Part shown: in pieces, positions 7,806 to 61,143 of the stretch
Position numbering within the stretch: the first letter of the stretch is position 1
Layout of the letters: each line of letters begins with the position of its first letter
Source of the DNA: Woeseiaceae bacterium
Lineage (GTDB): Bacteria > Pseudomonadota > Gammaproteobacteria > Steroidobacterales > Woeseiaceae
Assembly: GCA_013043165.1 (NCBI GenBank)
Contig: JABDOQ010000051.1
Coordinates: forward strand, 1 to 64,000
Reading direction: 5' to 3'
Length of the DNA stretch: 64,000 bases
Made by a program: the position numbers and the translations under genes
The notes under the pieces: generated by a model
Databases searched by the model: none
What the model saw: only the letters and a program-made list of their open reading frames with translations
Told to the model about the DNA's origin: nothing

Positions 7806-9101
<1,296 letters not shown>

Positions 9102-9134
9102 TTACCTGCTCGTCTGCTTGACTGCGCGGAGTGC

Positions 9135-9326
9135 TTAGCCGCGCACCGTGAAAAGCACCAGTAATCCGACAATCATGACCACGAGTCCAATGTTTCGTAT
9201 CTGGCTGTCACGTAGTTGCGCTATCTCCGCCACCATCTGGCGGTATTTTGCCGGAGAAATGAACGGCAGCATGCCCTCGATAACGCAGACGAGCGCGATT
9301 GCCGTCAATATTTCTTTCCAGTACAT
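9135..9326 (-). CDS. DUF2065 small membrane protein (YjeT-like)
   Basis: 63-residue protein with two hydrophobic helices (about residues 6-23 and 45-60) separated by a short polar loop (SPAKYRQMVAEIAQLRDSQI). Size, topology and position between hflC and purA match YjeT/DUF2065 of E. coli. Function is unknown; conserved linkage suggests a connection to the HflKC membrane complex. Confidence 0.9.
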   Translation of the reverse strand: MYWKEILTAIALVCVIEGMLPFISPAKYRQMVAEIAQLRDSQIRNIGLVVMIVGLLVLFTVRG

Positions 9327-9347
9327 CGCGTGCGGTTGTCCGCGTCC

Positions 9348-10220
9348 CTATTGCTTGCCGTCCGATTGATTCAAGTAGCGGAAAAACTCGTTCTTCGGAT
9401 CGAGAATCAGGACGTCGCCCGATTTGCCCATCGATTTGCGGTAGGCATCGATGCTTCGATAAAACGCGTAGAACTCGGGATCCTTGTTGTAGGCGGTGGC
9501 ATAAATCTCCGCCGCCTTTGCATCACCCTCGCCCTTTATCTTCTGGCTGTCGCGATACGCGTCGGCGAGTATGACGGTCCGGGTCCTGTCCGCTGCTGCG
9601 CGCTTTTCTTCGGCTGCAGCGCGACCCTCGGCACGACGCTCAGCGGCGATTCTCGCGCGCTCTGCCGCCATCTGCAGGTACACAGAGTTTCGCACTTCGT
9701 CCATGAACTCGACCTGCTTGACGCGGAAGTCTATGAGAGAAACGCCAAGGTCTTCAGATGCAGCGGCGGCCGTCATTCTCATGTCTCTCATGAGCTCAGC
9801 ACGCTCGACCGAAATTGCTTCCGAGACCGAGCGCTTGCCGAACTCGGTGACGATGGCATTTTTGATAATTTCCGAGAGCCGACCGTTGGCGACAGTCAGC
9901 ACACCGCCGGTTGAAGTGTAGTAGCGCACGGGATCGACAATGCGAAACTTCACGAAGAAGTCGACCTGAACGGCTTCGTTTTCCGCCGTAAAAATGCGAT
10001 CGGGACGGTCACTGATCGTCAGGATCCGGCGCGGGAATTTGCGAATGTTTTGCACTATCGGCCATTTGAAATGCAGGCCGGGCTCGTAGTCAGCGGTCAC
10101 CACCTCACCCAGTTGCAGTTTGATGGCCAGTTCGCGTTCATTCACTGTGAACGCCGACAGGCCGACGATGACGAGCGCGAGTCCAAGTATTACTACGCCT
10201 GTGAATTTTCCACCGTTCAT
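9348..10220 (-). CDS. hflC: FtsH protease modulator HflC
   Basis: Inner-membrane SPFH/band-7 protein that assembles with HflK into a large periplasmic cage around FtsH and modulates membrane-protein degradation. The 290-residue protein has an N-terminal anchor (about residues 7-24, VILGLALVIVGLSAFTV), then the band-7 domain and a long Arg/Ala/Glu-rich helix (AAERARIAAERRAEGRAAAE). Its ATG overlaps the hflK stop by four bases, with GGAGGG just upstream, so the two subunits are translationally coupled. Confidence 0.97.
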   Translation of the reverse strand: MNGGKFTGVVILGLALVIVGLSAFTVNERELAIKLQLGEVVTADYEPGLHFKWPIVQNIRKFPRRILTISDRPDRIFTAENEAVQVDFFVKFRIVDPVRYYTSTGGVLTVANGRLSEIIKNAIVTEFGKRSVSEAISVERAELMRDMRMTAAAASEDLGVSLIDFRVKQVEFMDEVRNSVYLQMAAERARIAAERRAEGRAAAEEKRAAADRTRTVILADAYRDSQKIKGEGDAKAAEIYATAYNKDPEFYAFYRSIDAYRKSMGKSGDVLILDPKNEFFRYLNQSDGKQ

Positions 10221-12698: not shown

Positions 12699-12947
12699 CT
12701 AATCGTCATCGTCTCCCTGCTCATCGTCCGGAAGCGGCAAACGAACATTGCGCGACGGCACGACAGTCGAAATCGCATGCTTGTAAACCATCTGATTTAC
12801 GCTGTTCTTTAACAACACCACGAACTGATCGAAGGAGTCCACCTGCCCCTGCAATTTGATGCCATTCACAAGGTAGATGGACACAGGAACTTTTTCCTTT
12901 CGCAAGATATTCAGGAAGGGATCTTGCAGCGTCTGCCCTTTAGCCAT
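12699..12947 (-). CDS. hfq: RNA chaperone Hfq
   Basis: Hexameric Sm-like RNA chaperone that pairs small RNAs with mRNAs. At 82 residues it is short to normal. Sm1 (about residues 8-50: QDPFLN near the start, [26 protein letters not shown]) and Sm2 ([15 protein letters not shown], about 52-66) are intact, with Phe42 and the YKHA proximal-face residues in place. The acidic tail (DDEQGDDDD) resembles the autoinhibitory tail of other gammaproteobacterial Hfqs. A strong AAGGAG site precedes the ATG. Confidence 0.98.
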
Positions 12948-13088
12948 ATTGGGTCTCCTTATTGTTCATTATTTTCCTGAAACCCGCGTCCCGGTGGCGC
13001 CGGAATGCCCGATTGCGAATCTCTGCCTAAGCGTAGAAAAAGTCTAACACAGCCGAAATCCCGGCAATATGCCCAAACGCGAGGGATT

Positions 13089-14018
13089 TCAGCCCAGTTG
13101 TTGCGCCAGATGCTTCGATATGGTGTCGATTGCATCGACTTCAAGCGGATTGGTCATGAAAACTGCCCGCTCCGAGCGTAGCCAGGTGAGCTGCCGCTTG
13201 GCCAGCTGCCGCGTTGCGAACAAGGCCCTTTCCCTGGCCTCGTCCAGGGAGCATTCGTTCTCGAGGTATTTCCAGAATTGTCGGTATCCCACGGCGCGCA
13301 TTGCCGGGCTGTCACGCATCACACCGGGACGCTCGCGCAGGCGCCGCAATTCGTCAACGAAGCCGCTGTCCACCATTTGATCGAGCCGCAAAGCGATGCG
13401 CTCGTGCAACAGCTTGCGCGGCTCAATCTGCAGTGCGATTTTCAGATACCTGGTGTCGTCCGCCCGGGTGTCGGCAGCCTGCTGCCACTCGGTCAGAGAT
13501 TTGCCGCTTGCTTTGTAGACCTCCAGGGCACGCTGAATGCGCTGACTGTCATTCGGGTTGATGCGCTCGGCCGAAATGGCGTCTATGGCTTCCAGCTCCG
13601 CGTGCACGGCCGGCCAACCGGAAATTTCCGCCATGTTATCGATTTCGCGGCGTATGCCTTCGTTGGCCATCGGCAATTCGGCGATGCCTTCGGTCAGCGC
13701 ACGGAAATACATCATCGTGCCGCCCACCAGTAGCGGGATTCGACCATGTGCGAAAATGCTCTCCATTTCCGCACGTGCATCGCGAACGAAATCTCCGGCG
13801 GAATAACTTTCCTCAGGATCGCGAATATCGATCAATCGATGCGGTGTTCTCTTGAGGGTTTCAGTATCGGGTTTTGCAGTGCCGATATTCATGCCGCGAT
13901 AAACAAGCGCCGAGTCAACGCTGATAATGTCGCAAGGGAAGCGCTTGCACAGGCTGATGGCGAAATCGGTCTTGCCCGATGCCGTCGGGCCCATTAACAG
14001 GATTGCAGTGCGATTCAC
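13089..14018 (-). CDS. miaA: tRNA dimethylallyltransferase MiaA
   Basis: Transfers the dimethylallyl group of DMAPP to N6 of A37 in tRNAs reading UNN codons. The 309-residue protein shows P-loop GPTASGKTD (about residues 10-18), the DSALVYRGMNIGTAKP segment with the catalytic Asp/Thr region, and QRIQRALEVYKASGKSL in the insertion domain. The start is GTG 14018, nine bases after the mutL stop. The 141-bp gap between miaA and hfq is the largest in the 3' half of the operon and could hold hfq promoters, though none is obvious. Confidence 0.97.
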   Translation of the reverse strand: MNRTAILLMGPTASGKTDFAISLCKRFPCDIISVDSALVYRGMNIGTAKPDTETLKRTPHRLIDIRDPEESYSAGDFVRDARAEMESIFAHGRIPLLVGGTMMYFRALTEGIAELPMANEGIRREIDNMAEISGWPAVHAELEAIDAISAERINPNDSQRIQRALEVYKASGKSLTEWQQAADTRADDTRYLKIALQIEPRKLLHERIALRLDQMVDSGFVDELRRLRERPGVMRDSPAMRAVGYRQFWKYLENECSLDEARERALFATRQLAKRQLTWLRSERAVFMTNPLEVDAIDTISKHLAQQLG

Positions 14019-14027
14019 GGCGGAGTT

Positions 14028-15782
14028 CTAACGTCCCCGCAGAAACAAGCGATCAAGTTCAGGCAACGTGATCTTCGTCCAGGTCGGTCGACCGTGATTG
14101 CACTGGTCCGCGCGCTCGGTGCTTTCCATCTCGCGCAGCAGCGCGTTCATTTCCGCAAGCGTCAGGATGCGATTGGCGCGCACCGAGTAGTGGCACGCCA
14201 TTGTTGCCAGGTAATCGTCGCTTACATCATCGATTCGGTTGCTGCTGCCGGATTCCGAAATATCGGAGAGAACGTCGCGCAGCAGAGATTCCGCATCCGC
14301 ATTCCTGAGCAAGGCCGGCACCTCACGGATCGTCAGGTTCGTTGGTCCCGACCGGTCCACCACGAGACCGAGTTTCTCGAGCACGTGACCCGACTGTTCG
14401 ACAAGGTTGGCCTCACTTTCGGAGACGGATATTGCCTCAGGAACGAGCAGCGGTTGCCGCACCAGATCACGGTCATCGTAGCCACGCTTCAGTTTTTCAT
14501 AAATGATGCGCTCGTGCGCCGCGTGCATGTCGACCACGACAAGTCCCTCGCTGTTCTCCGCAAGTATGTAGACACCTGCCAGTTGCGCAACGGCGAAACC
14601 CAGCGGTGGAACCGCAGCCGACGGATCCGGCGTTTCCGCAAGTGATGGCGCGGTCGCCAGGGAACCGTAGGCTGCCAGCGTCTCGCGTACGGCGGCAGTC
14701 GAAGGCCCCCTGTGCAGCGGCATTGAACCCTGGTTGAAGGCCGAGTCTCGGGTCATGGGAATCGGCGCCACGTTGTGCCCGCCCGGACGAGTGTCCTTGA
14801 GTGCGACCTCCACCGTTTGCGAAACGACGCCATGTACGCGGCGCCCGTCCCGAAACCGAACCTCATGTTTGGCCGGGTGCGCGTTCGCGTCGACGCCAGC
14901 CGGATCCATCGTCAGGTTCAGGATGTAGGCGGGATAGCGGCCGTGAAACAGTACATCACGGTAAGCATGCCGCGCCGCATGCGACAGCGTTTTGTCGGAG
15001 ATACTGCGGCCGTTGACAAACCAGTACTGCATGTCCGGCTGGCTGCGGTTGAAGGTCGGCAGACCGATCCAGCCCGACAGGGCAATGCCGTCGGTTTCAC
15101 GTTCGATATACACACATTGATCGGCAAACGCGTCGCCACACACGCTGGCGACCCGCTGCCGCCGTGATTCCTCATCGGTTGCCGCGGCGAGACTCAGCGC
15201 GGTGCGACGATTGTGGGTCAGCGTGAATGCAATATCGGGCCGTGACAGCGTCAGGCGGCGCACCCATTTTTCGATATGGCTGTATTCGGTGCGTTCGGTG
15301 CGCAGGAAACGTCGCCTTGCCGGCGTGTTGTAAAAGAGATCATGTACTTCAACGGTCGTTCCCTGCGGATGAGCGGCCGGCGCCGGCGTACTGACGGCGC
15401 CCCCGTCGGCCTCAAGCTGCCAGGCCGAATCTGCGCTGGCGGCTCGCGAGGTCAGCGTCAGACGTGCGACGGATGCAATGCTCGGCAGCGCCTCGCCACG
15501 AAACCCGAGCGAAGCAACCACTTCCAGGTCGTCCAGACTTGCGATCTTGCTGGTCGCGTGGCGCGACAGCGCCAGCGCGAGTTCGTCGTGATCTATGCCA
15601 GCGCCATCATCACGGATACGTATCAGCTTTTGCCCGCCCGAGATGATATCGATCTGAATCGCACGGGACCCGGCATCAAGGCTGTTCTCGACGAGTTCTT
15701 TGACGACCGACGCAGGCCGCTCGACCACTTCACCGGCGGCAATCTGGTTGATCAGGTGACTCGGAAGCTGTCGAATCGGCAT
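14028..15782 (-). CDS. mutL: DNA mismatch repair protein MutL (endonuclease type)
   Basis: GHKL ATPase and nicking subunit of mismatch repair. The N-terminal ATPase motifs are intact: ELVENSLDAGS, DDGAGI, ATSKI, GFRGEAL. The C-terminal domain carries the metal-binding endonuclease motif DMHAAHERIIYE and the late CNHGRPT motif, which are absent from E. coli MutL but present in, for example, Pseudomonas MutL. This implies MutH-independent strand nicking. At 584 residues, with a Pro/Ala-rich linker in the middle, it has normal length. It lies between amiC (96 bp upstream) and miaA. Confidence 0.98.
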   Translation of the reverse strand: MPIRQLPSHLINQIAAGEVVERPASVVKELVENSLDAGSRAIQIDIISGGQKLIRIRDDGAGIDHDELALALSRHATSKIASLDDLEVVASLGFRGEALPSIASVARLTLTSRAASADSAWQLEADGGAVSTPAPAAHPQGTTVEVHDLFYNTPARRRFLRTERTEYSHIEKWVRRLTLSRPDIAFTLTHNRRTALSLAAATDEESRRQRVASVCGDAFADQCVYIERETDGIALSGWIGLPTFNRSQPDMQYWFVNGRSISDKTLSHAARHAYRDVLFHGRYPAYILNLTMDPAGVDANAHPAKHEVRFRDGRRVHGVVSQTVEVALKDTRPGGHNVAPIPMTRDSAFNQGSMPLHRGPSTAAVRETLAAYGSLATAPSLAETPDPSAAVPPLGFAVAQLAGVYILAENSEGLVVVDMHAAHERIIYEKLKRGYDDRDLVRQPLLVPEAISVSESEANLVEQSGHVLEKLGLVVDRSGPTNLTIREVPALLRNADAESLLRDVLSDISESGSSNRIDDVSDDYLATMACHYSVRANRILTLAEMNALLREMESTERADQCNHGRPTWTKITLPELDRLFLRGR

Positions 15783-56525: not shown

Positions 56526-58964
56526 GTGAGCTTTCTCGCCTCATTTCGTTCCGACCAGGTTCTGGCGCAGCTCGTGGCACAGCCGGACGCTGCCTCGCCT
56601 GCCGCGCAAAAGCTCGTTGACAAGCTCAAGAGAGCCGGCAACAGGGCCGTTCCAAAGATCATCGACGCCCTGGCGCTTTCGGACAAAACCCACACGATGG
56701 TGCTGGTCGATATTCTCGGCGAACTCGTCAATGACAAGAACCTCGATATGTATCGTGAAGGGCTCGCCGACGGCAACGAACGCGTCGTATCGGGCACGGC
56801 CTGGGCCCTCTCCAGCAGCACCGAGTATAACCCCAACAGCCTGCTCGATTTTTTCGATGACGATGAGGTATCGAAAGCGGCTCTCATCGAAGTACTGCGC
56901 GTCCACAAGCAGGATCTCAGCGTACACGAACTGTTGCGACGCGCGTACGAGTGCGAAACCAAGGAAAAGGCGGCGATCTTCAAGATCATCGAGGAAATAA
57001 TCAAACCCGAAATGGTACCGGACCTGATCGCGCGCATGGGTGGCAAGGATCCGGTCATCAAGATGCACCTGATGAATCTGCTCGCCAGGTTCGACAAACC
57101 GGAAATTAATCACGCACTTGAAATGCAGCTCAAGGATCCGAACAAGATGGTCCGCAGCGCCGCGCTATCCGCGCTCGGCTCGCGCGGCGGAAAAATAAAC
57201 ATCGACAAAGTTGCGGACGTCCTGACTGACCCCGACCTCGACGTACAGAACAAAGCTGTCGATGTGCTTGTCAAAGCCAATCACCCGGACACAGTCCGCT
57301 ACCTCGTCAACGCCCTGAAAGACGAATCGGAATATTCGCGACGCGCGGCCGTTGAAGTGCTCAATGAAATTGGGGACGTCAATTCCGTCAAGGATCTGCT
57401 GGATGCGATCAAAGACGATGACTGGTGGGTGCGCTCTCGCGCCGGCGATGCGCTGGCCGAGATCGGCGGTCCCAAGGTTGTCGATTCGGTCGTGACGCTG
57501 ATCAACGACAAAGACGAAGATATTCGCCGCACCGCGATCGAAATCCTCAATGCCACTAAAGACCAGCGCGCCGTCGACCATTTGATCAAGGCCACAGATG
57601 ACAGCGACTGGTGGGTCCGTGAGCGAGCCGTCGACGCCCTTTCGAAGATCGGCGATGCGAAAGCACTGCCAAAACTCGAAGCCATGCTCGGGCAGGACAG
57701 CAAGACGGACACCGTTGTTATTCGCGCACTGGCAAAGCTGGGTAGCCACAAACACATCAACCAGATTCTGCCCCTGTTACAACGACCAGAGCGCGAAATC
57801 CAGATTGAAGCCATTAAAGCGGTGGCGCAGCTGACGGACGACGCGAACGCCGATTCGATTCGCAATCTATTGAAGAAATTTAGCAAGTCGGAAGACTCGA
57901 CTATAATCAACGTCGCCGACAAAGCCCTCAAGGATCTGGACGCCCGCTACTCCGAAACAGTCCTCGAAGAAAACGTCCGTGCGGAAAAAATCGCTTCGCA
58001 CACCAAAACGCTCTTGCTTGAAAATGACGAGCTGGATGAATTGCTACACGCACAGGCGGCACAAATTGCGGAAGCGGCTAAACCGAAAGAGGCCGAACAA
58101 GAGGCTCCGGTCGGGGCACCGATACTCGATATTTCCAAACTCAACCCTGGCGACGTTATCGAGGGCCGCTACAAATACATCGAGAAAATAGGCAAGGGCG
58201 CCTTCGGCACGGTACTGCTCATGGAAGACGAAGTGGTTGACGAGCAGCTTATTCTGAAGTTCTTGAATCCGAACGTCTCCTCGGACGAGGAAATGATGAA
58301 GCGCTTCGTGCATGAGCTTCGCTACTCTCGCAAGATCACGCACCGCAATATAATTCGCATTTATGACTTTCTGAACCTGCAGGGCTGTTATGCCATTTCG
58401 ATGGAGTACTTCCCGTCGCACACTTTGTCCGGCGAAATCCCCGACAACAAGCCGATGGATATCAAGAAAGTACTGAAGTACTCGCGGGATATCGCAGCGG
58501 GCATGCACGTTGCCCACCAGGCCGGTGTCATTCACCGCGACCTCAAGCCGGCCAATATTCTCGTCAACGATGAGGGACTGCTCAAGATAGTAGACTTCGG
58601 TGTTGCGGCGGCAGCCAGCAGTGGCGACACTCAGCTCACCAAGACCGGCTACGTAATTGGTTCACCAAAGTACATGGCGCCTGAACAAATCCTGGGCAAG
58701 AAAGTGGACGTAACCGCCGATGTCTACAGCGTCGGCGTCATCATTTATGAGATGGCGACCGGTATACCGCCGTACAGCCGCGGTGACCATATGTCGGTGA
58801 TGTACCAGCATGTGCAGGGTAAAGCCAAACACTGCCAGGAAGTCAATCCGGAAATCAGCGATGAATTCGCGGAACTCATCGTCAAGGCCATGTCGGTCGA
58901 CAAATCAAAGCGCTTTCAGTCAATGTCAGAACTCACTGACGCGCTCGACGCGATTACTACCTGA
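56526..58964 (+). CDS. HEAT-repeat / Ser-Thr protein kinase fusion
   Basis: About 812-residue soluble protein joining two parts. Residues about 1-490 are PBS-lyase-type HEAT repeats; the strongest pair repeats DWWVR...A.DAL..IG at 299 and 361, a 62-residue period. A charged linker rich in Glu/Ala follows. Residues about 545-810 form a Hanks-type kinase with Gly loop GKGAFGTV (556-563), Lys578, catalytic HRDLKPAN (670-677), DFGVA (690-694) and SPKYMAPEQ, so it is predicted active. There is no membrane helix or PASTA domain, unlike common bacterial kinases. The start is GTG 56526. It ends eight bases before the first pilT-like gene, implying one operon. Confidence 0.92.
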   Translation: MSFLASFRSDQVLAQLVAQPDAASPAAQKLVDKLKRAGNRAVPKIIDALALSDKTHTMVLVDILGELVNDKNLDMYREGLADGNERVVSGTAWALSSSTEYNPNSLLDFFDDDEVSKAALIEVLRVHKQDLSVHELLRRAYECETKEKAAIFKIIEEIIKPEMVPDLIARMGGKDPVIKMHLMNLLARFDKPEINHALEMQLKDPNKMVRSAALSALGSRGGKINIDKVADVLTDPDLDVQNKAVDVLVKANHPDTVRYLVNALKDESEYSRRAAVEVLNEIGDVNSVKDLLDAIKDDDWWVRSRAGDALAEIGGPKVVDSVVTLINDKDEDIRRTAIEILNATKDQRAVDHLIKATDDSDWWVRERAVDALSKIGDAKALPKLEAMLGQDSKTDTVVIRALAKLGSHKHINQILPLLQRPEREIQIEAIKAVAQLTDDANADSIRNLLKKFSKSEDSTIINVADKALKDLDARYSETVLEENVRAEKIASHTKTLLLENDELDELLHAQAAQIAEAAKPKEAEQEAPVGAPILDISKLNPGDVIEGRYKYIEKIGKGAFGTVLLMEDEVVDEQLILKFLNPNVSSDEEMMKRFVHELRYSRKITHRNIIRIYDFLNLQGCYAISMEYFPSHTLSGEIPDNKPMDIKKVLKYSRDIAAGMHVAHQAGVIHRDLKPANILVNDEGLLKIVDFGVAAAASSGDTQLTKTGYVIGSPKYMAPEQILGKKVDVTADVYSVGVIIYEMATGIPPYSRGDHMSVMYQHVQGKAKHCQEVNPEISDEFAELIVKAMSVDKSKRFQSMSELTDALDAITT

Positions 58965-58972
58965 GGCCGGCT

Positions 58973-60067
58973 ATGGCTCGTATCGACGCATTCCTGAAAC
59001 TCGGCCTGGCACAAGGTTGCTCCGACGTCCACCTCGCGGTCGGCGTACCGCCGATGCTGCGCATGAACGGCGACCTGATGCCGATCAAATTCCGGCAGCT
59101 TTCGGATACGGAACTCGAGACTTATATCCTCGAGGTGCTCACCGCCAAGCAAAAGGAACGTCTCGCCGCGGGACACGACCTGGACTTCTCCTACGTCGGC
59201 GACGAGGGCGGTCGATTCCGCGTCAACGTATTTCGGAAAGAAACGGGGATCGGCGCCGTATTCCGGCACATTCCAGGAGATGTCCCGACACTCGATGATC
59301 TCAACGTGCCACCGATTCTGAAAAAGTTCTGTGACTATCATCAGGGCATGGTGCTGGTCACCGGGTCGACGGGTACCGGCAAGTCGACAACGCTCGCGGC
59401 CATGATCGACCATCTCAACGAAACGCGAAACCTGAACATCATCAGCCTGGAAGACCCGATCGAGTTCGTGCACCCGAGCAAGAACTGCCAGGTCATCCAG
59501 CGCGAACTCGGCACGCACGTCAAGAGTTTTGCCGACGGCGTCCGCTCGGCGATGCGTGAAGATCCCGACGTCATTCTGGTCGGCGAGCTGCGTGACGCCG
59601 AGACCATCTCTATGGCGATGACTGCGGCCGAAACAGGCCATCTCGTTCTCGGCACCTTGCACACCACGGGTGCCGTCAAGACCATTGACCGAATCATCGA
59701 TGCCCTGCCCGGCGAGCTGCGTGAGCAAACCAAGGGTTTCCTGTCGATGAGCCTCAAAGCCGTCGTTACGCAGGTATTGGTCAAAACGCCGGACGGGCGC
59801 GGCCGGCGCGCCGTGCTGGAGATCCTTGTCAATACCCGGGCGATCTCGAAACTGATCACTACCGACCAGACGCACCAGATACCGTCCCAGCTGCAAACCG
59901 GCAAGAACGCTGGTATGCAAATCATGGATCAGGCATTGCTCGATGCGATTCGCGCAAAAGAAATTGACGCTGACGACGCTATTCGCTACGCCAGCGACAA
60001 GAAGAAGTTCCAGCGATTTGTCACCGATACGGACATGGTCCCGACACTCGACGTCAGTGGGGGCTGA
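58973..60067 (+). CDS. PilT-type ATPase (divergent paralog 1)
   Basis: 364-residue type II/IV secretion-superfamily ATPase of the PilT group, which retracts type IV pili. N-terminal PAS-like domain (GCSDVHLAVGVPPMLRMNGD), Walker A GSTGTGKST (131-139), Asp box [11 protein letters not shown], Walker [13 protein letters not shown], and His box GTLHTTGAVKTIDRI. The C-terminal AIRNLIRE motif that PilT needs for retraction reads AISKLITT, so function may differ from canonical PilT. Directly downstream of the HEAT-kinase and nine bases before a second paralog. Confidence 0.93.
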   Translation: MARIDAFLKLGLAQGCSDVHLAVGVPPMLRMNGDLMPIKFRQLSDTELETYILEVLTAKQKERLAAGHDLDFSYVGDEGGRFRVNVFRKETGIGAVFRHIPGDVPTLDDLNVPPILKKFCDYHQGMVLVTGSTGTGKSTTLAAMIDHLNETRNLNIISLEDPIEFVHPSKNCQVIQRELGTHVKSFADGVRSAMREDPDVILVGELRDAETISMAMTAAETGHLVLGTLHTTGAVKTIDRIIDALPGELREQTKGFLSMSLKAVVTQVLVKTPDGRGRRAVLEILVNTRAISKLITTDQTHQIPSQLQTGKNAGMQIMDQALLDAIRAKEIDADDAIRYASDKKKFQRFVTDTDMVPTLDVSGG

Positions 60068-60075
60068 GGCAGGTC

Positions 60076-61143
60076 ATGGCCAAAATCGACAGCTACCTCG
60101 AACAGGCACTAAAGGCGAACGCCTCCGACCTGCATTTCGTATCCGGTGACCCGGTACGGGCGCGCGTGCATGGCAACCTCTCGGTAATCATCGAAGAGCG
60201 GTTAAAGACGGAGGAAGCCGAGGAAATAATCTTCGAGATTATGGACGGTATAACAAGAAAAGCGTTCGATGCCGATGATGCCGCCGATTTCGCCTACGAG
60301 ATCCCTGATGTCTCGCGTTTTCGTGTCAACGCCTTTCGCCATTTGAACGGCGTCGGCGCCATTTTTCGCGCAATTCCATCCACTGCTCTGACGCTGGTAG
60401 ATCTTGATATGCCCAAAGTCATTCACGATCTCTGCAAGTACACGCAGGGCATGATACTCGTGACCGGCAAGACCGGCTCCGGCAAATCTACGACGCTTGC
60501 CGCCATGATTGACGCAATGAACAAGCGCCTGAAGGGCCATATCCTGACCATCGAGGATCCGATCGAGTTCGTTCACAAGGCGCAGGGCTGTCTCATGAGT
60601 CAGCGCGAAGTGGGGGTTCACAGCCCGAGCTTTGCCGAAGCCCTGCACTCTGCGATGCGCGAGGACCCGGACGTTATCCTGGTTGGCGAAATGCGCGACC
60701 TTGAAACGATCAGCATCGCCGTGACGGCGGCCGAGATGGGCATTCTCGTCATGGGAACCCTGCATACAAACGGAGCCGCTCAGACCGTCGACCGTATCAT
60801 CAACTCGTTTCCGGCCGACAAACAAAGCCACATACGCACCATGATCTCCACCTCACTCAGGGGCGTCGTGTCGCAGCAGCTACTGCCTACCTGCCACAAA
60901 CCCGGACGCGCCGCGGCGCTGGAGATCATGATCAATACGCCCGCCGTGTCGAATCTCATTCGGCAGGGTAAACTCGACCAGCTCGAAACGGCCATCCAGA
61001 GTGGCGGCAGTATCGGCATGAAGACCATGGATGGCGCGCTGATGGAACTCGTCGAGAAAGGCTGGGTTTCGGCCCAGGAGGCGTACCAGCAAGCCAACAA
61101 CAAGTCGAAGTTCGAGAACCTGAGGGAAGTCGAACAAGGCTGA
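60076..61143 (+). CDS. PilT/PilU-type ATPase (paralog 2)
   Basis: 355-residue PilT-group ATPase. [19 protein letters not shown] at the start, Walker [30 protein letters not shown] and [17 protein letters not shown] are intact. The C-terminal motif reads AVSNLIRQ, closer to AIRNLIRE than in paralog 1. This pairing resembles pilT-pilU tandems, but neither gene is clearly canonical pilT or pilU, and the location between mrp and metG is not the usual one. Confidence 0.93.

Follow-up and report, generated by a model that had tools for sequence, protein, structure and literature searches.

To our knowledge, how the decision of when to retract a pilus is taken at the level of the motor is poorly understood. 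Type VI secretion has a threonine-phosphorylation pathway made up of the kinase PpkA, the phosphatase PppA and Fha1. For the archaellum, the excerpts available describe a regulatory network of the FHA protein ArnA, ArnB, the kinases ArnC and ArnD and PP2A, and archaea are said in an excerpt of PMC4858521 to be without PilT family members. In Neisseria, PilT-2 is described in part of PMC6762196 as a paralogue of PilT with an accessory role, modulating the speed of retraction. A kinase inherited together with two PilT-type ATPases of its own would offer a direct entry to motor-level retraction control. Here we describe such an arrangement from a Woeseiaceae bacterium, a family whose sources include sediments, coral reefs and marine biofilms (PMC12175321, in excerpt). 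The window, meaning the whole 64,000-nucleotide stretch of DNA that was analysed, had been given a first-pass annotation that knew of no system of this composition. Our literature searches, which covered open-licence papers, likewise found no HEAT-kinase with PilT-like ATPases among the papers listed; one paper with matching words (PMC4304861) does not, in the part available, concern such a system.

Gene layout of the locus

The locus consists of three genes, HEATK, PT1 and PT2, hereafter the trio. All three frames are open, lie on the plus strand and are separated by 8 bp each:

56526-58964, plus strand: HEATK, GTG start, 812 aa, a HEAT-repeat/Hanks-kinase fusion
56526..57950, plus strand: HEAT-repeat array of HEATK, residues about 1-475 (Pfam HEAT_2; all-helical AlphaFold2 model)
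57951..58160, plus strand: poorly conserved linker of HEATK, residues about 476-545 (low pLDDT, few conserved columns)
58161..58964, plus strand: Ser/Thr kinase domain of HEATK, RD type (Pkinase match; invariant catalytic residues)
58973-60067, plus strand: PT1, PilT-family ATPase in a clade of its own, 364 aa (TIGR01420 423.7 bits; clade support 100)
59840..59863, plus strand: AISKLITT of PT1, residues 290-297, at the position of AIRNLIRE in PilT (DNA reading, alignment)
60076-61143, plus strand: PT2, second PilT-family ATPase in a separate clade, 355 aa (TIGR01420 437.6 bits; clade support 99)

The trio sits between mrp and metG in a genome of the Woeseiaceae type, and in E. coli K-12 these two genes are direct neighbours. 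Of the seven closest other frames tested, six score as purM, purN, dCTP deaminase, mrp/apbC, metG and rnfA, and the seventh matched nothing; no pilus structural gene was among them, and besides PT1 and PT2 this contig contains no T2SSE member over the cut-off. These results bear out what the first-pass annotation had read here, namely a HEAT-kinase fusion followed at 8 bp intervals by two PilT-like genes, placed between mrp and metG and, over the frames tested, without the usual pilus structural genes. A block without pilus genes is ordinary, as these are found elsewhere in the same genome: PilB on contig C40, PilQ on C66 and the canonical pilT-pilU pair on C34.

HEATK is a Hanks-type kinase fused to a HEAT array

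In HEATK, Pfam identified HEAT_2 (1e-68) and, over residues 549-800, Pkinase (2.1e-53). Across 35 aligned rows K578, H670-R671-D672, K674, N677, D690 and G692 were invariant, as were P719 and E720, the PE of APE, and F691 was retained in at least 90%. The activation-loop residue Thr705 is also invariant. The protein carries the catalytic Lys, HRD, Asn, DFG and PE of APE by which Hanks-type kinases are recognised, and HEATK is a Hanks-type Ser/Thr kinase with intact active-site residues that is predicted to carry out phosphotransfer. No membrane segment was apparent (best 19-residue Kyte-Doolittle mean 1.22), and the soluble kinase with intact Lys578, HRD and DFG proposed from the initial reading is upheld on both counts.

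The AlphaFold2 model has a mean pLDDT of 84.9 over the whole protein, with an all-helical HEAT part and values below 50 within the linker at residues 479-500 and 520-530. The Stk1 and PknB kinase domains are the nearest solved folds to the kinase domain. For the HEAT part no fold match was present among the best 50 Foldseek matches listed, which show kinase domains. Most of the invariant columns of the array fall within residues 260-384. We had considered its motif DWWVR as a special binding site; this was dropped once the same stretch proved to be matched by a HEAT protein and by designed alphaRep proteins of solved structure, so that part of its conservation may be general repeat consensus.

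PT1 and PT2 form two clades of their own

T2SSE was identified by Pfam in both ATPases, and both score over the curated TIGR01420 (pilT_fam) cut-off of 319.1 bits, which places them in the PilT/PilU family. The Walker A, Asp, Walker B and His boxes are kept in both clades, with the Walker B core xxGE present in all 36 PT1 rows and all 34 PT2 rows; PT1 retains Walker A GSTGTGKST, EDPIEF, REDPD, LVGE and GTLHT. PT1, PT2 and PilT separated into distinct clades (supports 100/99, 99/98 and 82/98, respectively), which were recovered in a second tree with SH-aLRT values of 100, 99 and 99, and all PilU rows split off from the three with a support of 100. PT1 and PT2 thus each have their own clade and belong with neither canonical PilT nor canonical PilU; a grouping with these had been named in the first-pass annotation as a possible refutation of its reading. 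The AIRNLIRE motif, found in 38/39 PilT rows, occurs in 0/36 PT1 and 0/34 PT2 rows. Both of its arginines are missing from every PT1 row (36/36), and the AISKLITT of the window agrees with the earlier remark that PT1 lacks a clean motif. PT2 of the window reads AVSNLIRQ, and throughout the PT2 rows the first arginine is gone and the second retained (34/34). As in the window's genome, pilT and pilU are present in all 19 other HEATK-positive genomes with a pilT locus read, which were picked for a listed strong PilT match.

The trio is a conserved module

A HEATK orthologue was found in 35 of 276 sampled genomes of the class, spread over 21 family codes. A genome-wide search for the PT1 clade gave matches in 33 of the 276, all inside the HEATK-positive set and in 0/241 of the others (Fisher 1e-40, uncorrected for kinship); for PT2, co-occurrence comes from the loci read. 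PT1 lies directly 3' of HEATK in 33/35 class loci, with gaps of -4 to 135 bp and 12 of the 33 pairs overlapping, and outside Woeseiales the genes flanking the trio vary. Among 80 Woeseiaceae-like loci, the closest 80 of 552 confirmed relatives, both PT1 and PT2 follow HEATK in 65/65 with enough downstream DNA, and metG lies downstream in the same proportion of those with room (65/65). Over 18 genomes the distances correlate beyond PilT (partial r of 0.64 for HEATK-PT1, 0.75 for HEATK-PT2 and 0.58 for PT1-PT2), and the controls against PilU gave 0.14, 0.24 and 0.23. Given this co-occurrence, tight spacing and conserved order, the kinase, PT1 and PT2 are one conserved module, as first suggested from the single locus.

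The presence of the module in Woeseiaceae and 20 other family codes of the 276 genomes argues that it is not one strain's curiosity, a concern raised at the outset. Within Woeseiaceae HEATK occurs in 49/61 genomes, and plasmid records contained no HEATK match at 1e-60; a strain-specific oddity or mobile element was rejected. In a phylum sample of 397 genomes a 1e-60 match was seen in the window's genome only; the 20 unmatched genomes listed all belong to the window's class, and 376 are unlisted. Several genomes depart from the pattern. In G206 the PT1-PT2 pair and HEATK are on separate contigs, with HEATK away from the contig end, and each of the two genomes with family code f75 has an interrupted or shortened frame (HEATK in G245, PT2 in G134), through assembly or decay. 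G197 and G294 contain a related HEAT-kinase of 27-32% identity and no PT1-clade match, so that this kinase architecture in itself is not bound to PilT.

Phospho-signalling genes accompany the trio in other lineages

In 31 loci outside Woeseiales we observed genes near the trio for DUF6812 proteins (24), FHA proteins (20) and a PP2C phosphatase (8), the FHA and PP2C models having been built from these same loci. Cyclic-nucleotide genes, too, are near the trio in many lineages. Neither an MSHA gene nor a pilus structural gene was among the recurrent neighbour families identified. FHA, PP2C and DUF6812 genes were beside the trio in 0/7 Woeseiales loci read, window included. DUF6812 occurs in 25/276 class genomes, every one HEATK-positive, and in 0/7 Woeseiales genomes, where the search had no positive control; the same model matched the 25 elsewhere. 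Compared with PDB folds, the AlphaFold2 model of the DUF6812 protein (pLDDT 89.7) matched none at E 0.001 or better; its weak matches to Hfq (E 0.27, probability 0.99) serve as no more than a lead.

Relation to type IV pili

All 49 HEATK-positive Woeseiaceae genomes have a PilT family member over the cut-off. Eleven of the 61 have neither HEATK nor the PilT family, and in these PilB and PilQ were also not over their cut-offs. Three of the eleven are at least 90% complete (G004, G015 and G049) and the others range down to 52%; nine share one genus code, and they represent few independent losses. These eleven contrast with a survey in which, in the part available, every Woeseiaceae MAG, pelagic ones included, is reported to carry pilTIJU (PMC12175321). 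One further genome, G034 (85% complete), has PilT and PilB and no HEATK. Conversely, PilB over the cut-off is absent in 5/35 HEATK-positive genomes, including the one-contig G100, and PilQ is over it in 4 of these 5. The secretion role that the first-pass annotation had offered beside retraction was set aside as a first choice, because both ATPases are PilT family and because nine reduced genomes of Woeseiaceae in which a GspE-like ATPase is retained lack PilT, PilB and PilQ (by cut-offs) and also HEATK.

Taken with the family membership of PT1 and PT2, this co-absence suggests that they work with type IV pili. We give about even weight to the trio being a circuit in which Ser/Thr phosphorylation controls an accessory pair of retraction-type motors of the type IV pilus, next to PilT/PilU. 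PT1 and PT2 would be hexameric PilT-type ATPases forming a paired accessory motor, conditionally used, beside the constitutive PilT/PilU. The cytoplasmic kinase would sense an input and then phosphorylate PT1/PT2 or a partner, altering whether the pair engages the pilus machine. Its HEAT array may be a protein-binding arm; that it is a docking scaffold, as proposed initially, is a guess. In other lineages the DUF6812 protein, an FHA phosphothreonine reader and a PP2C phosphatase would complete the circuit. Somewhat more tentatively, the trio may represent a widespread, undescribed system whose HEAT-kinase uses threonine phosphorylation to switch a dedicated PilT-type motor pair, with FHA and PP2C in many lineages, giving post-translational control of retraction at the motor, separate from PilT/PilU and the chemosensory Pil system. 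If so, reversible phosphorylation of a second motor, or of something around it, would gate retraction.

The complete loss of AIRNLIRE in the PT1 rows, the FHA, PP2C and cyclic-nucleotide neighbours and the lack of a recurrent pilus structural gene among them would also fit ATPases that are not pilus motors and that serve a threonine-phosphorylation pathway as effectors or gates, with an incidental link to pili. We consider this unlikely: both proteins are PilT/PilU family with all four boxes kept, and none of the 11 Woeseiaceae genomes that lack PilT, PilB and PilQ by cut-offs has HEATK. Besides PilB and GspE, the window's genome has a third assembly ATPase clustered with MshI/J/K/L-like genes (named by eye), and V. 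cholerae PilT and PilU serve DNA-uptake and MSHA pili alike, according to part of PMC6762196. PT1-PT2 could accordingly be the dedicated motor of another type IV filament, such as an MSHA-type pilus, and not a type IVa accessory, although we found no MSHA gene in the recurrent neighbour families identified, single neighbours being partly annotated, and regard this as quite improbable.

PilT paralogues are common, with up to four in some species (PMC6762196, in excerpt), and ordinary extra copies might have come to lie beside a kinase by chance, functionally unlinked. This was already disfavoured and seems very improbable, with HEATK in 33/33 PT1-clade genomes and the gene pair retained across 21 family codes while its neighbours change. 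The kinase domain also matches the PADLOC kinases PD-T4-6 and mad6, yet an anti-phage defence system is hardly credible: the best matches span the kinase domain only, the ATPases score weakly there (P-loop), and occurrence in 49/61 Woeseiaceae genomes, the constant metG and the lack of a plasmid match are unlike defence genes. A phosphorylation-controlled accessory motor pair is the reading we prefer.

Comparison with known systems

The Myxococcus MasABK operon, with the kinase MasK, is similarly tied to type IV pilus-dependent motility; unlike the trio it encodes, in the part of PMC3546991 available, a membrane complex of which two members interact with PilA, and no PilT-type ATPase. In the archaellum network a type IV pilus-like machine is likewise controlled by kinase, FHA protein and phosphatase, but its target is the synthesis of archaellum components, and the excerpts describe no HEAT-kinase/ATPase operon. 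Neisseria PilT-2 resembles PT1 and PT2 in being an extra PilT-type ATPase in a cell that also has a functional PilT, a likeness drawn from its description in part of PMC6762196, which mentions no kinase partner. In the type VI pathway, as in the circuit proposed for the trio in other lineages, a cell-envelope machine is controlled by a Ser/Thr kinase together with a PP2C and an FHA protein. In contrast, the machine parts of the trio are PilT-type ATPases, its kinase is fused to HEAT repeats and shows no evident membrane segment, and the FHA and PP2C genes do not lie next to it in Woeseiales. PilT/PilU of type IVa pili share with PT1/PT2 the TIGR01420 family, the active-site boxes and a tandem pair in an operon, whereas PT1 and PT2 form separate clades, PT1 is without AIRNLIRE, and the pair shares its operon with a kinase and is present besides pilTU, not replacing it.

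The kinase-ATPase trio and its conserved arrangement

Three genes of the window form a compact block, hereafter the trio, in which the spacers between HEATK and PT1 and between PT1 and PT2 are 8 bp each:

56526-58964, HEATK: HEAT repeats and a Pkinase domain (Pfam, NCBIfam)
58973-60067, PT1: PilT/PilU family TIGR01420, above cut-off
60076-61143, PT2: PilT/PilU family TIGR01420, above cut-off

Across an alignment of 35 rows the Hanks kinase catalytic residues of HEATK are invariant or almost so; Thr705, part of its activation loop, does not vary at all. An AlphaFold2 model built from the window and locus sequences (mean pLDDT 84.9) showed a helical array extending to about residue 475, followed by an unsure linker and then the kinase domain; with a pTM of 0.52, the relative placement of the array and the kinase domain is not predicted. 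Among the solved structures listed, the Stk1 and PknB kinase domains have the closest folds. Among the best 80 of 552 relatives, the closest named matches to HEATK come from Woeseiaceae and unclassified Gammaproteobacteria MAGs.

In the class-wide sample PT1 lies directly behind HEATK on the same strand in 33 of 35 loci, one PT1 being truncated by a contig end. The distance between the two genes ranges from -4 to 135 bp, and they overlap in 12 of the 33. The exceptions are G323, where a contig ends, and G206, where the PT1-PT2 pair and HEATK are on separate contigs. PT2 follows PT1 in 32 loci; in 31 of them the two genes are -4 to 90 bp apart, and in the remaining one 355 bp lie ahead of a shortened frame. 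In all seven loci read from the window's family and order, the trio is flanked by mrp and metG, which are adjacent in E. coli. Among 80 Woeseiaceae-like loci from named genomes (the best 80 of 552 relatives) mrp is present in 79, and all 65 with at least 2.4 kb of downstream DNA contain genes resembling PT1 and PT2 where these would be expected, together with metG. Outside the order the trio is set among other genes, so the content of the block is kept while its place changes.

HEATK matches were found in 49 of 61 family-level genomes, with best E values (1e-170 or lower) that set them well apart from generic kinases. Among 276 genomes of the class, sampled at a requested completeness of 90%, 37 gave a match at 1e-60; we excluded two (G197 and G294; 27-32% identity, no PT1-clade match), leaving 35 HEATK genomes from 21 family codes. 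PT1-clade matches (at least 57% identity) occurred in 33/276, every one among these 35, where the best three HEATK or best seven PT1 candidates were scored per genome and misses are possible. Of the two HEATK genomes that gave no PT1 match, G219 carries a PT1 truncated by the contig end, and G323 a HEATK that is itself truncated. One further genome at the PT1 threshold, G213, holds a canonical PilT next to pilU (49% identity).

Distant HEAT-kinase relatives (27-32% identity) were also seen in L094 (8168-10582), L095 (8058-10508) and L106 (8256-10490). In the first two the gene lies between clpB-like and bolA-like genes, read by eye, with no PilT-like genes near; L106 stops too close to its HEAT-kinase for neighbours to be judged.

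PT1 and PT2 are distinct from PilT and PilU

In a 158-row tree of the PilT family, PT1 (36 rows), PT2 (34), PilT (39) and PilU (38) each formed a single clade with SH-aLRT of 99-100, while a third PilU-like group (11 rows) formed no single well-supported clade. A second, 50-row tree that included outgroups resembling PilB, GspE and MshE gave bootstrap/SH-aLRT values of 100/99 for PT1, 99/98 for PT2, 82/98 for PilT and 100/99 for PilU. The C-terminal AIRNLIRE motif is present in 38/39 PilT rows. Both of its arginines are gone from all 36 PT1 rows; in PT2 the first is gone and the second retained (34/34). According to PMC6762196, the motif faces the cytoplasm, is a suggested site of PilU interaction or coupling, and is lacking in PilU.

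The genome containing the window (3.19 Mb) carries its own motors on other contigs. On C34 a tandem array of canonical pilT and pilU plus a third gene, PilU-like, adjoins genes identified by eye as yggS and proC. C40 carries PilB, C66 PilQ and C107 a GspE-like ATPase, and C48 has a third assembly ATPase within an MSHA-like cluster (by eye). The PT1-PT2 pair is therefore additional. The third PilU-like gene of C34 occupies 8566-9672 of locus L009, behind pilT-pilU, and an extra PilU-like gene occurs in 11 of the 39 pilT loci read.

Association with type IV pili

PilT-family matches over the cut-off were present in 50 of the 61 family-level genomes, and all 49 HEATK genomes fall within these 50 (Fisher 3e-11, kinship not corrected). 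The 11 genomes with neither are 1.1-2.0 Mb in size, with stated completeness of 52-99% (three at 90% or above); nine of them share a single genus code. PilB and PilQ were over the cut-off in none of the 11; nine retain a single PilB-type match and a secretin match, both of lower score, and from score and neighbourhood we take these for GspE and GspD.

In the class sample, a PilT-family match as strong as that of canonical PilT (1e-145 or lower) is present in 33/35 HEATK genomes, and 30/35 have PilB over the cut-off. The other five (G092, G100, G104, G174 and G245) weaken a simple one-to-one link between HEATK and the pilus. All of these except G092 have PilQ over the cut-off. The best PilB-like match (in G104 the second best, the sole one read) lies among type II secretion-looking genes, by eye. 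Divergent PilB or missing contigs may account for the gap. G100 is a one-contig genome (C1) with the trio, strong PilT-family matches and PilQ, its PilB not over the cut-off. Over 153 pairs, which are not independent, evolutionary distances within the trio correlate more than those to PilU when PilT is allowed for.

Phospho-signalling genes neighbour the trio in other lineages

We searched 31 loci with HEATK that come from family codes other than f1 and f2, the codes of the window's family and order; the profiles were made from the same loci, several of which end close to the neighbour genes. A DUF6812 protein is encoded immediately upstream of HEATK in 24/31, an FHA protein downstream in 20/31, with midpoints no more than 5 kb apart (two on the opposite strand), a PP2C phosphatase upstream in 8/31 and an FHA-GAF-HD-GYP protein in 6/31. 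None of the four was found by profile search in the seven loci of the window's own family and order, window included. DUF6812 of this type occurs in 25/276 class genomes, all 25 HEATK-positive. Phosphothreonine is recognised by FHA domains and dephosphorylated by PP2C enzymes, so the natural reading of these neighbours is a phosphorylation circuit around the trio.

The FHA-GAF-HD-GYP genes (L076, L079, L080, L090, L096 and L101) lie upstream of HEATK on the opposite strand and encode a putative c-di-GMP phosphodiesterase that also carries a phosphothreonine-reading domain (Pfam for the L101 copy, the rest by profile). Close to the trio, L072 carries an FHA-containing class III nucleotide cyclase (13662-14552, Pfam), and a retropepsin-like aspartyl protease gene (12891-13559) that shares 4 bp with the end of PT2. 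Similar cyclase-FHA genes were found by profile in L074, L077, L082 (split across two frames), L083 and L099.

A proposed role for the trio

The best account among its rivals, to which we give about an even chance, is that the trio is a kinase-controlled accessory motor of the retraction type. PT1 and PT2 would act as hexameric ATPases engaging the pilus machine or PilT/PilU, and this engagement would be conditional, the condition being sensed through HEATK. The account builds on what was observed of the trio: its ancestry, its associations, its context and active-site residues that are intact. Its substrate, direction, the role of the HEAT repeats and an effect on retraction are what we infer. 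Among the matches listed, the open-licence literature contained no description of a HEAT-kinase combined with PilT-like ATPases. The parts of the trio are of known kinds, and it is their combination and its conservation that appear new, so far as that literature goes.
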